Origin: Thraustochytrium sp. TN22 | Lineage: Eukaryota > Sar > Bigyra > Thraustochytrida > Thraustochytriidae | Assembly (NCBI GenBank): GCA_013306675.1 | Contig: JABLUY010000127.1 | Coordinates: 42,161-106,160 of the forward strand | Reading direction: 5' to 3' | Length of the DNA stretch: 64,000 bases | Part shown: positions 1,262 to 10,333 of the stretch, one piece after another | Numbering within the stretch: position 1 is the first letter of the stretch | How the letters are laid out: every line of letters begins with the position of its first letter | The notes under the pieces: model-generated | The model's database searches: none | Told to the model about the DNA's origin: nothing | What the model saw: only the letters and a program-made list of their open reading frames with translations | Made by a program: the position numbers and the translations under genes

Positions 1262-4200
1262 ATGGGGGCGTGCGCTTCGTCAGGCTACAATGGCGATCCA
1301 ATGGGCGGATGGACCGGCGCGTCGGCGATGAGCCGCAGCAACACGAGCGCACGCATCGTGGTGCCCGAGCCCGGGCCGGGCGAGTCGAGCGTCGTTGTCA
1401 CGGAGTTCGACAGTCTCGAAAGCATCACGAGTGTCGACGAGGTGTGCGGCGCCAGCAGCGCGCCCAAGGACGGGCCCCGCTTCGTTCGCCAGGCTACCTG
1501 CATGGACACCGAGACGTTGCACGCGCGAGCGCCATTTGCGGCTAGCGGCCAGGATGCGGCTAAAACGCTGGAGCCCGTGAGCGAGGACTTTCCCAACCTC
1601 TTCCGCCTCGACCGCGATGGCTACCTGGTGCAGACCGCGTCCGCGGGGGTCATGCAGTTTGGCATCCCGCCCGAATCCATCAAGGACTGCATGCACCACG
1701 GCCTGGAGGTGCCGACCTTTTACGTCATCTCGGGCGAGATGTTCGACCGGCAGTGTGGGCTGAGCACGGCAGAGTTCGAGTTCCCGGCGTACTACAACTA
1801 CTTCGTCAAGAAGCGCAGGGTGACCATCTTCACGACGACGTCTCTCGAGGCGCGCATCCGCGCCGCCTTCTCCGAAACGCTCCTTGGACCGGCCGAGAGG
1901 CACCTGCACTTGGAGCAGGACTTCGCGCCGTGGCTGCGGCACAAGTCGGCCTTTCCCAATTTCGCGGGCGAGGGCATCGGCTTGGACGCGGCGCGATCCA
2001 GCCTGACTATCGATGACTTGCTCGAGTTCAGGCCGCTCCGCGAGCTGCAGGAAAACCACATCAACGACCATCTCATGGTCAAACACGTGCGGGAGTTCGA
2101 TCGCAAGGGCTCCTTTGAGCTGCTCTTCCGCGTCTTCGAGTTTGGCGAATGCATTGCCAAGGTCCCAGCCGTCGTCCGCATTCGCCCGCCCGAGGCACTA
2201 CCGGTCGTGGCGCACCACGTGTACGTGCCGCCGCTCTTTGGCGTCACGGTGCTCGGCGCCTCCCACGGCTTCGACCCGAAGGGCAATACGACGGGCTTCG
2301 TGCTGTGGATCAATCGCTCCGGCATCATGGTGGACCCGCCGCCCAACAGCTCACAGCTCATGGAGCACCTCGGCATCGCGCCAAGTTCCATCGAGGGCAT
2401 CATCCTCACGCACTGCCACGCCGACCACGACGCTGGCACCTTCCAAAAGATCTTGCGCCAGCGCCAGGTGCGTTTGTACACAACCACCACCATCAAAGAG
2501 TCCTTTCTGCGCAAGTATGCTGCTATTACCGGCTTTGAACTCGGCTTTCTCAACTCGCTCTTCAGCTTTAAGGAGGTCGTTATCGGTACGCCGATCCGCA
2601 TCGGCTGTGCGAGCCTGCGCTTCTTCTATTCGCTTCACACCATCCCGTGCATCGGTTTCCAGGCGACCTGGAATCGCAGCTCCATCGCCTACAGCGCTGA
2701 CACCAACTTCTCGCCGGCGCTCCTGGAGCGGCTCCACTCGGAGGGCGTCATCGGCAGGGACCGCCGCGACCAGCTTTTGCAATTCCCCTTTGATGCCACC
2801 ATCGTGCTGCACGAAATGGGCGTGCCGCCCATTCATACCGCAACCCACGATCTGGAGGCCAAGTGCGAAGAAGACCCGACGCTCAAGGATCGCCTTTTTA
2901 TTGTGCACGCTGCGCCCAGCGCGGCGCTCAAGCTGCAACAGCTGCGCGACATGGAGACGTTGCGCATCCCCGTTCAGCGCTGCAACGGCTGCGTCACCAG
3001 GGAGATCGTGCGTCTTTTGCGCGCACAGTACTTCTTCCGCCCAATCTGGAGAAATCCTGCGCTGCTCAAGCAGCTCGCGGCCCTCGGAGAGGTCATGAAG
3101 TTCGAGGCTGGCGACCGAATCGTGGATGAGGACGACGCCGTGGGCCACTTCTGGGTGGTCATGTACGGCGCGGCGGTCATCACTCCGTCCGACACGGACT
3201 TCGTGTCGCGCACGCTCTCTGACGAGGCGCACCTCGCACTTGTGGCGTCATCCGCAGCTCAAGCGAGCCGCAGGCGCCACGAGGCGCTGAGCGAGGATGA
3301 TGCAAACCTGGGCAAGGCACGTGTCTGCATTCCGCCGGACAGCGACGGCGGTTGCGATCTTGACTCCACGGACGACGTTCAGGGCCGCCAGTCAGTCCAT
3401 CACCGCGAATTTCTTCGCCACACGCGATCACATCCTCGTGACCATGCTGGCCAACCTCAAAGGCACCGGCAGGTACTCAGCGGGACGGACTCGTTCGGCG
3501 AGACAGGCATCTCACACAGCCTTGAGCGGCTGTTGCAGCGCACGGACGACGCGCATGGCAACGTGAATCTGGCGGTCGGCCAGAGAGGAGGAGGCCGTTC
3601 ACAAGGGCCGGCGAAGTATCATGGCGGCCGCGGCGGCCGCGGCGGCACCAGCAGCAAGAGCGGCAAGTCGAAGCGACACAGCCTGCTTAAGAGGCTTACG
3701 GTGGCGGTCACCCCGTCCCGGGCAACCTCCAAGCCGTCGGAGACGTATGGCTACCATGTCAATGCGCACACGGATTGCTCGCTCGTGCGCTTTCCGATTG
3801 CGGCACTCGTGGATGCGCTCCTGCAATCGCGCTCCGGCACTCTGGTGTGCGACTCTCTCAGCCTCTCGAGCGCGGCGGCCAGCATCAGCGCGCTTGAGGT
3901 CCTTGCGGCGAACAGTGCGCTGCACGACATTCTCGTGGACCAGCTCTGCATGGAGGAATTCATTCGGCTCTTGAAGCGGGAATCCTTTGCCCAGGACGAC
4001 CGAGTCCCGGAGCCTGCCATTGTCATCAGCGGGACCGTTTCGGTGGAGCAGAGCTCGTCTTCCTCGGGCACCTTTCGCGGCATCACGCGAACCGATATTG
4101 ACTTCCAACCGAAGCGTTGCCTTGGCCGCGGGGTCTTCTTCGGCGATATGAACAGCGTCGCCAGAGGCCTTCCGTCAACCCTCGAAATTCGCGCTGAGTC

Positions 4201-4306
4201 CACCGTAGAGTGCTACGTTATTGGGCAGCGTGCATTCGCTAGGTTCGTCGAGCACTTCCCGGGCTTCCTCGTGCAGATCCTCGATAGGCATTACATTTTG
4301 CCGTGA
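1262..4306 (+). CDS. Metallo-beta-lactamase-fold hydrolase fused to cyclic-nucleotide-binding domains, N-myristoylation motif
   Basis: The 1,014-residue protein begins MGACASS, an N-myristoylation motif with a nearby cysteine for palmitoylation, so it is probably membrane-tethered. A metallo-beta-lactamase fold spans roughly residues 320-560. The metal motif HCHADHD starts at H384, with D480 and H549 as further likely ligands. Two degenerate cyclic-nucleotide-binding domains follow. The first begins near residue 598 and has the phosphate-cassette-like FGE at 745-747, followed by an HTDCSLVRF strand. The second has FFGDMNS close to the C-terminus. Class II cyclic-nucleotide phosphodiesterases also use this hydrolase fold, so a cNMP-sensing hydrolase is possible; the substrate is inferred, not shown. 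Residues about 660-735 are rich in histidine and arginine, and another frame reads more like protein there. The start has a good context (gagccATGG). The gene converges on the neighbouring kinase gene. Confidence 0.85.
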   Translation: MGACASSGYNGDPMGGWTGASAMSRSNTSARIVVPEPGPGESSVVVTEFDSLESITSVDEVCGASSAPKDGPRFVRQATCMDTETLHARAPFAASGQDAAKTLEPVSEDFPNLFRLDRDGYLVQTASAGVMQFGIPPESIKDCMHHGLEVPTFYVISGEMFDRQCGLSTAEFEFPAYYNYFVKKRRVTIFTTTSLEARIRAAFSETLLGPAERHLHLEQDFAPWLRHKSAFPNFAGEGIGLDAARSSLTIDDLLEFRPLRELQENHINDHLMVKHVREFDRKGSFELLFRVFEFGECIAKVPAVVRIRPPEALPVVAHHVYVPPLFGVTVLGASHGFDPKGNTTGFVLWINRSGIMVDPPPNSSQLMEHLGIAPSSIEGIILTHCHADHDAGTFQKILRQRQVRLYTTTTIKESFLRKYAAITGFELGFLNSLFSFKEVVIGTPIRIGCASLRFFYSLHTIPCIGFQATWNRSSIAYSADTNFSPALLERLHSEGVIGRDRRDQLLQFPFDATIVLHEMGVPPIHTATHDLEAKCEEDPTLKDRLFIVHAAPSAALKLQQLRDMETLRIPVQRCNGCVTREIVRLLRAQYFFRPIWRNPALLKQLAALGEVMKFEAGDRIVDEDDAVGHFWVVMYGAAVITPSDTDFVSRTLSDEAHLALVASSAAQASRRRHEALSEDDANLGKARVCIPPDSDGGCDLDSTDDVQGRQSVHHREFLRHTRSHPRDHAGQPQRHRQVLSGTDSFGETGISHSLERLLQRTDDAHGNVNLAVGQRGGGRSQGPAKYHGGRGGRGGTSSKSGKSKRHSLLKRLTVAVTPSRATSKPSETYGYHVNAHTDCSLVRFPIAALVDALLQSRSGTLVCDSLSLSSAAASISALEVLAANSALHDILVDQLCMEEFIRLLKRESFAQDDRVPEPAIVISGTVSVEQSSSSSGTFRGITRTDIDFQPKRCLGRGVFFGDMNSVARGLPSTLEIRAESTVECYVIGQRAFARFVEHFPGFLVQILDRHYILP

Positions 4307-4597: not shown

Positions 4598-7458
4598 TCA
4601 GAACTCGTTGTACCAGGTGCCACCGGACTCCATCATGGAGTCATCTACGAACTTGTCGTCCTCCTCGTGGCGGTCGTCGCAGGACTCGAAGTTCTCCGCG
4701 TCAAGTCCCGACTCGGGGACGCGCGGGCGGAACTGCTCGGCGAGAATGAAGGTGCGCTTCTCCATCTTGTCCCAGTCAAGCGCAAAGGAGAACTCCTCTG
4801 TGACGCCGAAGAACGGGTGCTCCTTGACGTGCGCGGCGTTGGCCTTGCGCGTACCGTAGCGCTTGCTTGGCGAAGGGCAAAGAAGCCGCAGCAGGAGCGA
4901 ACAGAGTTCAGGGCCAAAGAGGGGCGGGAACTGGATGGACGGGTAGTACTTTTCGTACTTGGAGATTTCAATGTAGCAGTCCCAGGAGTTCTGGGAGACA
5001 ACATGAAAGGGCGAGAAGCCAGAGGCCATCTCGTAGACAATGACGCCGAGGCTCCACCAGTCGACGCCCTTGGAGTGGCCGCTGCGCTTGTAGACCTCGG
5101 GCGCCGTGTATTCGGGCGTGCCACACAGCGAATAGGTGCGCTGATCATGGATCATCTTGGCGAAGCCGAAATCGGCGAGCTTGAGATAGCCGGTCTCGTC
5201 CAGCAGCAGGTTCTCCGGCTTCATGTCGCGGTGGATGATGCCCTGCCCGTGCAGATATTCGAGCGCGAGCACGATGCAGGCCGTGTAGAAGCGGCACTGT
5301 GACTCGAGCTCAAAGCAGCCACAGATGATGTCGTCGTCATCGCTGATATCGGCGTTGCGCGCGTCGACGGTGTCCTTCATCAGCGAGTAGAGCTCGCCGC
5401 CCAGGCAAACCTCGGTGAGCATGTAGACCGAGTCGCCCTTGTTGTAGGTGCAGATGAGGTTGACGAGAAAGGGCGAATGCGTGGCAGACATGAGCTCACG
5501 CTCGTTCTTGACGAAGCGTTGCTGCTTCTTGGCCACAACGGTGGCCTTGCGGATGCGCTTGAGCGCGTAGGTCTCGCCGGTGACGCGGTCGCGCACGAGG
5601 TCGACCGTGCCATAGGAGCCACTGCCCAGCGTGCGCACCTTCTGCAGCTTGTCCCAGGGCACCTGGTGCTTTTTGTTCTCCTTGGCGGACTTGCGGTGCT
5701 GGAAGGTGTCGCCGAGCTTCTGCTTGAGCCCCTCGGAGAGAAATTTCTCGAAGCTGGACCGCTTGAGCCCCCATACCTTGGTCTTGCCCGGGCCGACGGC
5801 GTACACATTGCAGCGGCGCGGCGCGTTGGTGAGCAGCGCGCCCTCGCCAAAGTAGTCGCCGCTGATGAGGGTGCCGACGCGCTTCGGCTCGGCGCCCTCA
5901 CCGGCGCCGTCCTCCGTCATTGTGCATTCGAGCGTGCCATCCTTGACGATGTAGAAGATGTCGCCCATCTCGCCTTGGTGCACGACGTACTCGTTGGGCT
6001 CAAACTCGACCTCTTCAAGCGTGGACACGATCATGCTGAGCTGGGAGTCCTCGAGATCCTTGGCCAGGTCGAGGCTCTTGAGCACGCGATAGCACAGGTT
6101 GTGCTCGAAGAGCTCACGCAGGGACCCCATGTACTCCTGGAATTCATGTCGGCCGAGCGCCAGGCACTTGACCACGTCCGAGTCCGCGATCGCGTTCGCG
6201 TTGCGCACGCCGAAAGCCTCTCCGGACGACCCGTCGTCCAGCAGCGCGCCCTCGCCGATGTACTCGCCGCGCGTGCGCCGCGCCACGACCGCGGCCGTCG
6301 GCGCAGCCTTGTTGCCGCCGGCCACCTGCGTGTGCCGGCTGTTGGCTTGCGTGATCACCACCTCGCCTTCCTCGATGAAGTACATCGTGTGGCCCTGCTC
6401 GCCCTGGCGCATCAGGTACTCGCCCCGCACGAAAGTGATGGGCTTGAGCGCCGCCGCGATGGCCTCGCGCGTCTCGCGCGGCAGCTCCTTGAGGCCTGGA
6501 ATCTCCGTGATATTTTCCAAGAGCGAACCGCCGCGCTCCAGCTTGCGCTTGAGCGCCTCCACCGTAACCTTCTGGTATTGGAGCCGGGTGATGACCCACA
6601 GCCGGCAGTCCGTCACGGCGCGCAGCGTGCCGGAGCACAGGCCGGGCCCGAGAAGCGCCTGCTCGTTGCCGAAGGTCGCCGGGGCCCCGTCAATCTCCAT
6701 ATCGCCGTCAACCAGCAGCACAAAGTACAGGAACGGCAGGTCCTTGACGAAGATGTCTTCGCCCGCGGCGCAAGTCGCCTCCGACATGCTGTCGAAGAGG
6801 TCGTCCAGGACCTCCTCGCCCACCAGCGGGAAGGCCTCCATGTTCCGCCGGGCGCGTTCCTTGTCCTCCTCGGTCTTGGCGGCCTCGCCCGAGATTTTGA
6901 TGCCGCTCGTGCGCAAGCCGCTGCTCGCCTCATTGCCGTCCAGCTCAGCCCTGAAGCCCGTGAACCCCTTCTTCTTGACGCGAAAGCGCGCGCTCTCCTC
7001 GTCGCGGAAGCGCGCGCGCGCGCGTGGTTTGCGCCAATGTTCAGCGTACCAGAACCGTCAGTTTCCGCATCGCTTGGGCTCCTGCGCGGCTTTGCATTTT
7101 GCTGCGTCTGTTGCTGCTGTGCGCGCTCCTGCTGCTCACGGGCGGCCGCCCTGCGGCGCTCATCCTCGTGCTTGGCCTCCTCCTCCTGCTCTTCCTCCCG
7201 CCGTGCCGAGGCTGCGTCCTCGGCTTCCTTCTGCTCCTTGTGCGCGCGGTCCCCGTCGCCGTAGGTTGCTGCGCTCCGTGGCGACCCGGCGTCCACGTCC
7301 GCGGTCTTGCCTTCCTTGTTGCGCACGTCGATGTCCTTGGTGCTGCGGCTGCTCTGCGCGACCTCCTCCTCGGCCTTACCCTCCCCCACGTCGGGCGTAG
7401 GCGGCTCGAGGGGGCCCACCTCGCTGGCCGACGACTTCTTCGACGCGCCGCCGCCCAT
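4598..7458 (-). CDS. cGMP-dependent-type protein kinase (AGC family), frame broken at a (CG)7 run
   Basis: The ATG at 7458-7456 opens MGGGASKKS, a strong N-myristoylation motif, followed by a charged, glutamine-rich N-terminus. The frame then shifts by two bases at (CG)7, 7011-7024. Skipping one CG unit joins it to the main frame and predicts about 952 residues. Three cyclic-nucleotide-binding domains follow. The last has the canonical cassette FGEGALLTNAPRR. The kinase domain shows the loop GSGSYGTV, YALKRI, HRDMKPEN, the DFGFAK magnesium motif (D codon at 5173-5171) and GTPEYTAPE, with an AGC-type tail to the stop at 4598. The order of regulatory then catalytic domains is that of PKG; cGMP rather than cAMP specificity is inferred from family. 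An unusually small intron could instead explain the frame change. Confidence 0.88.
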
Positions 7459-8071: not shown

Positions 8072-9121
8072 TTAGGCCGCCTTGGCCTTGGTGCTCGCGG
8101 CATCCGGCATGGACGGGACCACGGCAGCGCTGGGACCCGTGCACCAGAGCGGGGCCCAATTCATCTGAAAGCCGAAGAGGTAGAGCATGATGAGGTGATA
8201 CGAGATCTCGAGGTACGCGAGCTCCACCGGTACAATCCGCTCAAACTTGAGGGCGCAAAGCGCATGGACTGCGTGCGGTGCATGGCAGGGCGCAGGGGTC
8301 AGTCAACCAGGAGCAAACAAGCGCGAACTGGGTGGCAAGAACTTACGGACGCAACTGGCGAACTGCGTGAGCTGAAAGGCGGTGATGTAACGCTTGAACG
8401 GGTTGTTGATGCCAAAGCTCGACACGAGGTAGTGCGTGTACATGATGACGTGCGTGACGGAGTTGATAAAGGCGCCGTAAGCGCTGACGCCCGAGCCCCA
8501 GCCGCGGCTGAGCAGGAACGGCCAGACGATGGCGATCGTAGCGTGGTGGAAGACCTGCAAGAAGGAGATCTGCCGATAGCTCTTCTTGAAGACCATCACA
8601 AAGGTGTCCACGTAGTCAAGGTACTTGGACAAGAAGTGCAGAAAGACGAACCACTCGACGTCCGCGTCGCGCTGCGTGTTGAGCCCGAACGGGTTCCAGA
8701 TGCTCGCGGGCAGCAGGCCCCAGCTCATGTACGCGCACAACACAATCTGCACCAGGTTGTACACAGGCTGCACGCGGTTGCGCAGCACCTCCGTCTTGGG
8801 CGCCTTATCCGCCATGAAGCGGCTCAGAGTCCACACCGCCACCAGGTACACGGCCGGCACGCCCAGATACACGGTCGGCGACACCATCAGGTCGTAGAAC
8901 GGGCCCTGGTTGAACGCCATGCGCCCGCCCGTCGCGTCCGGCGCATGCTCGCTCGCATACGCAAGGCCGCACACGAAGAGCGTGCAGATGCTCAACGTGC
9001 GCAGAGTCCCCGCACTGCGGTCGATCTCCGGGCCCTTTCGCTTCGGCGAAGCCTTCGCCGCCGCGTCACCCACGGCGCTCGGCGCCGTGGCGCTCTCCAC
9101 CGTATCCGTCCGTACGGCCAT
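8072..9121 (-). CDS. ELO-family fatty-acid elongase (3-ketoacyl-CoA synthase), QxxHH type, two exons
   Basis: Condensing enzyme of the ER very-long-chain fatty-acid elongation cycle, adding two carbons to acyl-CoA. Exon 1 is 9121-8347 and exon 2 is 8268-8072. The 78-bp intron has a GTAAGT donor (8346-8341), a CTGAC branch-like sequence and a CAG acceptor. Joining restores one frame and gives 323 residues. The diagnostic box is QVFHH (Q189, H192, H193); Gln at the first position is typical of polyunsaturated-fatty-acid elongases, while HxxHH is typical of saturated or monounsaturated ones. Several hydrophobic membrane spans are present, and the C-terminus ends KAKAA, a lysine-rich tail compatible with ER retention. 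The start is the ATG at 9121; the frame is open further upstream, but only from a GTG. Substrate chain length cannot be read from the sequence. Confidence 0.93.
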
Positions 9122-10333
9122 GATCTCGCTCGGCACGCGTCGCACGCTCTCCGCCGCTCCGAAGATTGTACTTGCAGGTCTGCAGGTCACGACGCGTTTC
9201 TGATACGAGGCCGACCAAGCCGCCGCTCTCCGAGGTGGTAGTACCTGGGCGCACGCACCTGAAATTTTGCTCTGCGCGTCCTGCTACCCCGCCCTCGGCC
9301 AGTCAAGCTGTATCGCCGCTTCTCGATTTAGAGGTAACAAGTCTGCTGGTGCGTTTCTTGCTGCCCCCTGGGCTAGGCAACCAGGTCCAGGAGTAGCCGT
9401 GCAGAAGCCGCCGTGCAGAGCGCAGCTTCGGCACGAGAACTATGCAGCTATGCTATCAACTTACTGTGTTCGCGTCAAGACTGTCGCGGTGCGGTGCGGG
9501 GCCTCTTGCATCGTCGCCCGCGTCATCGTGGGCGCGCCGCTGCCGCCACAGACTCCGGTTTCGAGCGCCGCCTGTCATCCTTTCGCGCTGTACGTCCCCT
9601 GCTTGAAGTCTCAACGCCACCTGCCCACGAGCCTCCAAAAGCTGACGTGAGCGTGCTTCGCGCCACGTGCCATCGCGCCAGGCAGGCAGGCAGCCAGCCG
9701 GACCGCCGTGTCTTGGCCCTGTCACTGAGTCAAGAGCGGCGGTCGCTGCCAAAAGCTTTGCCGGCCGCTCTAGCCGCTGGCCGGGCAAGCAGCCCGGACC
9801 TCGGCCACGCACAAAGCGGCCTCGCCGTCCGCCGAGTCCGCCGGGTCCGCCGAGTCCTCCGAGTCCTCCAGGTCCTCCGCCGCGAGGCAGTCCCGCTTCG
9901 TGCGCACCGCGACGTCTTTACTTGTGTGACCATGACTCCTCATCATCGATCAGGCTGAGTGGTATGATGTCCGCGCGGCACTGGCACTGCAGCGCCCGTC
10001 CTGGTGCTGCTCCGAGTCTGCGCGCAGCGGCAGCTGCTAGGTTAGCTGGAGCTGCGCTTCCACGCAATGCAATGCAACGCAATGCAGTGCAATGCAGTGC
10101 AATGCAGTGCAATGCAGCGCAGCGCAGCGAATGCGAGGCCACGCGAGGCCATGGCCATGCGGAAAGTGCCGGGTTCGCCGTCGCGCGGGTTCGCCGTCGC
10201 GCAGGGCGTCGTCGTCGACCTCGTCGTCGTCTCCGAGGTGAAGCTGCTGCAGATCCTGCGGCGGGGAGCGAGCGAGCTAGGCCCGGTCCGAGGCCAGGAG
10301 CGGGCGGCGGCGGAGGCGGCAGGCCGCTCGAAG
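9122..10333. other. Divergent upstream region between elongase and SDR-CbiX genes
   Basis: The region has no recognised gene and probably carries both promoters. Positions about 10063-10125 are a tandem repeat of roughly 10-bp units related to TGCAATGCAG. Runs of GAGTCC/GTCCG-like units occur at about 9830-9880. The frame of the downstream gene is open back to 10067 through the repeat and contains further ATGs (for example 10151), so its start is uncertain. Confidence 0.45.

Follow-up and report, generated by a model that had tools for sequence, protein, structure and literature searches.

The gene considered here occupies positions 1262..4306 on the forward strand of the window (the whole stretch of 64,000 nucleotides of Thraustochytrium sp. 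TN22 DNA that was analysed), where a single open reading frame, with no intron needed, encodes a protein of 1014 aa. The earliest ATG in this frame is found 14 codons past the upstream stop, and GC3 along the frame varies between 0.64 and 0.92 in 50-codon windows. Searched against Pfam as a whole, the protein matches cNMP_binding (5.7e-10, 39.5 bits, cut-off 27.5), Lactamase_B_2 (4.1e-7, 30.2 bits, cut-off 27) and Lactamase_B (4e-6, 27.3 bits, cut-off 22.7). Four parts can be delineated, all on the forward strand: a conserved N-terminal domain (residues ~112–268; 1595..2065), a metallo-β-lactamase (MBL) domain of the RNase Z/PDE-like kind (residues ~320–560; 2219..2941), recognized by Pfam, alignment, profile and PDB search, and two cyclic nucleotide-binding domains, CNB1 (residues ~575–862; 2984..3847) and CNB2 (residues ~880–1014; 3899..4303). 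With family-specific profiles built from bacterial rows (see below), these parts score 134.2, 311.2, 12.6 and 30.7 bits, respectively; the top scores among 200 shuffles of the protein, which served as the control, are 3.4, 0.1, 2.9 and 4.5 bits. The CNB1 match spans only profile positions 28–68 of 121, and that of CNB2 positions 62–116 of 134. The original prediction, of a lipid-anchor signal, an intact HxHxDH hydrolase fold and two degenerate CNB domains, is borne out in each of these elements, and the HMM search that it proposed places both the MBL and cNMP_binding families over their cut-offs, with cNMP_binding matching the C-terminal region. It had missed the N-terminal domain, seven paralogues in the host and the bacterial relatives.

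The protein begins at that first ATG with MGACASS (1262..1282). N-myristoylation follows the rule Gly2, a small or uncharged residue at position 3 and Ser or Thr at position 6; checked by eye, MGACASS fits this rule through Gly2 and Ser6, making it a candidate site, and Cys4 is a possible palmitoylation site. Six of the eight host members, namely, the focal protein, L006, L007, L089, L090 and L091, have MG at the first in-frame ATG, and in four of them (the focal protein, L006, L007 and L090) it is accompanied by Ser6. L008 presents MGAGAS at its third Met, and the N-terminus of L002 reads MNEA.

Tail-to-tail with the gene, and ~290 bp from it, lies a cGMP-dependent-kinase-like (PKG-like) gene (4598–7458, reverse strand) whose product combines a kinase domain with three CNB stretches. 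An open reading frame at 6613–7458 on the same strand, in another frame, starts MGGGASKKS and may represent the first exon of this kinase, in which case the kinase may also be lipid-anchored. Beyond the PKG-like gene, positions 8303–9190 (reverse strand) encode an ELO-type fatty-acid elongase (PF01151, 4.2e-35).

Family members and their conserved domains

A protein search of the host genome found eight family members, the focal protein and seven paralogues (L089, L090 and L091 being longer versions of L003, L004 and L005). In each of the seven paralogues, cNMP_binding scores over cut-off, as does one of the lactamase models; L006 is the only paralogue in which both lactamase models do so, with L003–L005 having been scanned without their 5' ends. 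The prokaryote collection yielded 217 candidate stretches, 208 of which encode relatives; the best 80 of these 208, all bacterial, were kept, and they belong mainly to Spirochaetota, Myxococcota and Planctomycetota, with a few from Thermodesulfobacteriota and one from Wallbacteria. No match to the family was found in the plasmid collection. The bacterial relatives are 33–40% identical to the focal protein over their best-matching segment; one partial match reaches 43%. Once three that run off a contig end (L026, L032 and L041) had been dropped, 77 bacterial proteins (703–860 aa with script-chosen starts) were aligned with the eight host proteins to give 85 rows, 56 of which make up alignment A1. 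Among 56 members scanned with Pfam (8 host and 48 bacterial), an MBL family and cNMP_binding are both found at E<=0.01 in every one.

The HCHADHD motif of the MBL domain (2411..2431) corresponds to HCHADHDS of Dictyostelium PdeD and PdeE. By the RNase Z-type scheme, the metal ligands are His384, His386, Asp388, His389, His459, Asp480 and His549; all seven are identical in 77/77 bacterial and 8/8 host rows. The motif is extended to HCHADHDA in 61 of the 77 bacterial rows and to HCHADHDS in the other 16, whereas the host rows have HCHADHDA in seven cases, including the focal protein, and HCHSDHDA in one. By sequence, the closest solved MBL structures are 1zkp (5.3e-7), 6kns (1.1e-4) and two Apyc1 entries (5.6e-4 and 1.9e-3).

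Besides class II phosphodiesterases (see below), Ribonuclease Z and Apyc1 were rejected as families for the focal protein: no NCBIfam family is over cut-off in the three host members scanned, the strongest match, to the Ribonuclease Z model TIGR02651, reaching 28.5 bits against a cut-off of 292.95, and the Apyc1 family PF23023 scores 15.4 bits, its cut-off being 50. Apyc1 nucleases cut cyclic nucleotides, and the title of a publication names them anti-Pycsar nucleases. They resemble the focal protein in the MBL domain, but at 245 and 250 aa the two chains so named are too short to hold the extra domains. The weak similarity to RNase Z models and to Apyc1 would also suit an enzyme acting on some other phosphodiester, such as RNA 3' ends, pyrimidine or 2',3'-cNMPs, or cyclic dinucleotides, with cNMP serving as the regulator only. 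We regard this as unlikely: the RNase Z score is far below its cut-off, and both HCHADHD and the MBL-CNB-CNB order are common to the known cAMP/cGMP phosphodiesterases.

The N-terminal domain is marked by the family motifs QFGxPPETIKD, EFPxYxNFF and ETLxGP, with small variations in the focal protein, and its invariant positions across the 56 rows of alignment A1 include Gln132, Pro136, Pro137, Lys141, Asp142, Glu173, Phe174, Pro175 and Phe181. It matches no Pfam family over cut-off and has no convincing relative in the PDB; the top match there, to a LEDGF/JPO2 construct, has an E value of 0.0077 in a search extending to E 10 and was taken as chance. The domain appears to travel with the catalytic domain. 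A search of the host genome with the N-terminal domain alone returned the same eight members and no stand-alone copy among the best-scored candidates, and in all 80 of the kept bacterial relatives a PPxx(I/V/L)KD motif, from the N-terminal domain, and an HxHxDH motif share one frame. Of the 24 N-terminal-domain matches in 20 bacterial genomes, 23 belong to open frames 713 aa or longer. The remaining one (genome G004, contig C181:453-1058) is divergent and its frame spans only 398 aa; it may be a short form, or may have been truncated at the contig end. The Wallbacteria genome G009, from which L036 comes, has three copies of the domain, on contigs C104, C18 and C93, in frames of 1037, 888 and 1496 aa.

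A tree was computed by a quick method from the N-terminal and MBL columns of the 77 bacterial and 8 host rows, the host being the sole eukaryote included. The eight host copies fall on one side of a branch with SH-aLRT support of 93, which falls short of the star threshold of 95, and this branch sits inside a set of 33 rows together with Myxococcota and Planctomycetota rows (support 100). The focal protein clusters with L008 and L090 (support 99). The program flagged a meeting of long branches (L008 with L090) and an odd amino-acid make-up in 14 rows, so the exact placing is unsure; the topology is compatible with a bacterial origin of the host family followed by duplication.

The CNB sensor domains

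Scored singly against Pfam cNMP_binding, the two CNB parts reach 22.2 and 27.3 bits; because each alone is under the cut-off of 27.5, the term 'degenerate' used for them in the original prediction is fair. In CNB1, the FGE of the phosphate cassette is kept (residues 745–747), and its Gly and Glu are present in 85/85 rows. The cassette Arg, in the column of residue 829, is Arg in 77/77 bacterial rows, but in only four of the eight host members (L002, L006, L089 and L090); the focal protein has Tyr829, L007 has Glu, and L008 and L091 both have Val. An Arg does occur near this column in L007 (one place off) and L008 (two places off), so a true loss is less certain there and the function may be kept. 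The full cassette pattern, FGE-x7-9-RxA with F or L as its first letter, occurs in 74 of 77 bacterial and four of eight host rows. In the focal protein FGE is present and RxA is absent; Arg756 stands at FGE-x8-R, followed by ~70 inserted residues, and could, going by the alignment, still bind the phosphate. The best CNB1 piece in the focal protein, at 12.6 bits, is the lowest of the eight host members, six of which score 42.6–95.7 bits; L008, also lacking the aligned Arg, scores 17.7 bits.

Long inserts interrupt CNB1 at residues ~645–740, before FGE, and ~757–825, after it (3194..3736 on the forward strand, with approximate borders). The eroded appearance of the domain could be an artefact of annotation or assembly, for instance, an in-frame intron or a frame error within residues 645–825: GC3 in residues 651–750 (0.68 and 0.64) is below that of most of the frame, and the adjoining kinase gene may hold an intron, as suggested by its two overlapping frames. 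Such an artefact is very unlikely, however, as the frame runs without a stop, residues 640–840 contain no donor-like GTRAG site and both other forward frames of residues 701–850 contain stops (one and three). Moreover, three paralogues (L002, L008 and L089) have long inserts of their own where the pre-FGE insert of the focal protein sits, and L091 has one after its LGE.

CNB2 has a non-canonical phosphate cassette (FFGDMNSVARGLPSTLEIRA). No conserved cassette Glu or Arg is found in this domain, the bacterial rows included; since this is so even in bacteria, CNB2 is likely to be structural, or to act in a non-canonical manner, in most members. Toxoplasma PCR12 is a strong match in the PDB profile search, but in the part of the alignment listed it covers CNB repeats only, and it was set aside.

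These features bear directly on whether the focal enzyme could be regulated allosterically in the manner of Dictyostelium GbpA and GbpB, with cNMP still binding to one or both CNB domains and switching the MBL domain. The retained FGE, the presence of Arg756 at the FGE-x8-R position and the score of CNB2, still recognizable as a CNB domain at 30.7 bits, would all allow this, as would the cassette Arg being in place in the four host members and throughout the bacterial rows. Set against this are the Tyr in the Arg column and the missing RxA of the focal protein, its CNB1 score and the lack of a conserved cassette Arg or Glu in CNB2. On balance, we find it somewhat doubtful that the focal copy is gated in this way.

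Proposed function and comparison with known enzymes

The original prediction knew of no well-described family with this domain order, but one does exist. According to PMC11988041, Dictyostelium GbpA/PdeD and GbpB/PdeE are class IIb phosphodiesterases in which an MBL domain is followed by two CNB domains, and they are activated by cNMP; PMC3188802 adds that PdeD and PdeE (GenBank AAL06059 and AAL06060) hydrolyse cGMP and cAMP, carry HCHADHDS and resemble lactamase_B proteins. Compared through these published descriptions (PMC11988041, PMC3188802), the focal protein has the same MBL-CNB-CNB order and, with HCHADHDA, seven of the eight letters of the motif; as expected for the GbpA/GbpB type, two CNB regions are found downstream of its MBL domain, amounting to 39.5 bits over the whole protein with each alone under cut-off. 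It differs in its possible lipid-anchor start, eroded CNB1 and long inserts; the Dictyostelium pair are given as cytosolic (PMC11988041, Table 1). The bacterial proteins have all four parts in common with it, including the N-terminal domain, but keep the CNB1 Arg in 77/77 rows, and nearly all of them are too short to contain inserts of the focal size. The comparison with class II phosphodiesterases made in the original prediction is loose: PDEase_II enzymes, such as Dictyostelium PdsA/PDE7, have a related metal-site motif (PMC3188802), but this reads HSHLDH, as opposed to HCHADHD here, and PDEase_II is absent from the Pfam hits of the focal protein at E<=1. A literature search, to which most subscription journals were out of reach, brought up no publication recognized as describing the family in bacteria, or in any protist besides Dictyostelium, and PMC12422582 gave no match to MBL terms. 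The arrangement itself thus has a precedent in Dictyostelium. The present analysis contributes the extent of the family, its N-terminal domain, the MG start that recurs in the host paralogues and the finding that CNB1 is eroded in the focal copy.

Judging from sequence, the focal protein is probably a class IIb-type cNMP phosphodiesterase, tethered to the membrane, with its catalytic residues intact and an eroded, possibly insensitive, sensor. Myristate on Gly2, perhaps together with palmitate on Cys4, probably holds it on a membrane, where cAMP or cGMP in the vicinity would be hydrolysed by its di-metal MBL domain. The activity of the bacterial relatives and of four host paralogues is likely controlled by cNMP bound to CNB1, in the way reported for GbpA and GbpB. 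As CNB1 is eroded in the focal copy and the catalytic residues are kept, this copy may be a local sink that is either constitutive or regulated by other means. For the self-regulated membrane cNMP hydrolase that was originally conceived, the part best supported is a cNMP phosphodiesterase tethered to a membrane; self-regulation is doubtful for the focal copy because the CNB1 Arg common to all the aligned bacterial rows is missing at the aligned place, and the erosion of CNB1 argues against simple self-regulation. In favour of this overall reading we count the Pfam domains and their order, the invariant ligands, the motif, the GbpA/GbpB precedent, the Apyc1 structures, the co-occurring cyclases and host class I PDEs (see below) and the MG starts; against it we count the lack of an NCBIfam family over cut-off, the lack of a recurring cyclase beside the bacterial genes and the alternative offered by Arg756.

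More tentatively, the host may have derived, from a bacterial-type phosphodiesterase gated by cNMP, a set of eight enzymes that are mostly tethered to membranes; the canonical FGE-x7-9-RxA cassette of CNB1 is missing from four of them, and CNB1 is weakest in the focal copy. Copies of this kind would act as local sinks of fixed activity, or might answer another signal through the N-terminal domain, which is conserved from bacteria onward and may be the true second input for regulation or dimerization. With this family, the architecture of the two slime-mould enzymes is found in a further host and in many bacteria, an uncharacterized N-terminal domain accompanies the catalytic domain in the members sampled, and the host paralogues form a natural set for comparing gated with possibly ungated phosphodiesterases in a single cell.

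The neighbourhoods of the bacterial genes show no recurring operon: with 15 of the 80 loci skipped as near-duplicates (by eye) and 10 of 116 neighbours dropped for exceeding 700 aa, no Pfam family occurs more than four times among the 106 immediate neighbours. Nor is a cyclase recurrent beside these genes, being absent among the 25 families listed of 124. Class III cyclases are found in 20/20 sampled bacterial genomes that have the gene; this co-occurrence is weak evidence for a phosphodiesterase role, because 5/14 control genomes also have them. In the host genome (37.9 Mb, 453 contigs), matches to class III cyclases fall in 21 stretches on 14 contigs and those to class I PDE in 14 stretches on 11 contigs, indicating that cyclic-nucleotide signalling is well developed in this organism. 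On contigs C423 and C116, a cyclase match and a class I PDE match apparently share one open frame (2658 and 2247 aa, respectively), which suggests cyclase-phosphodiesterase fusions.
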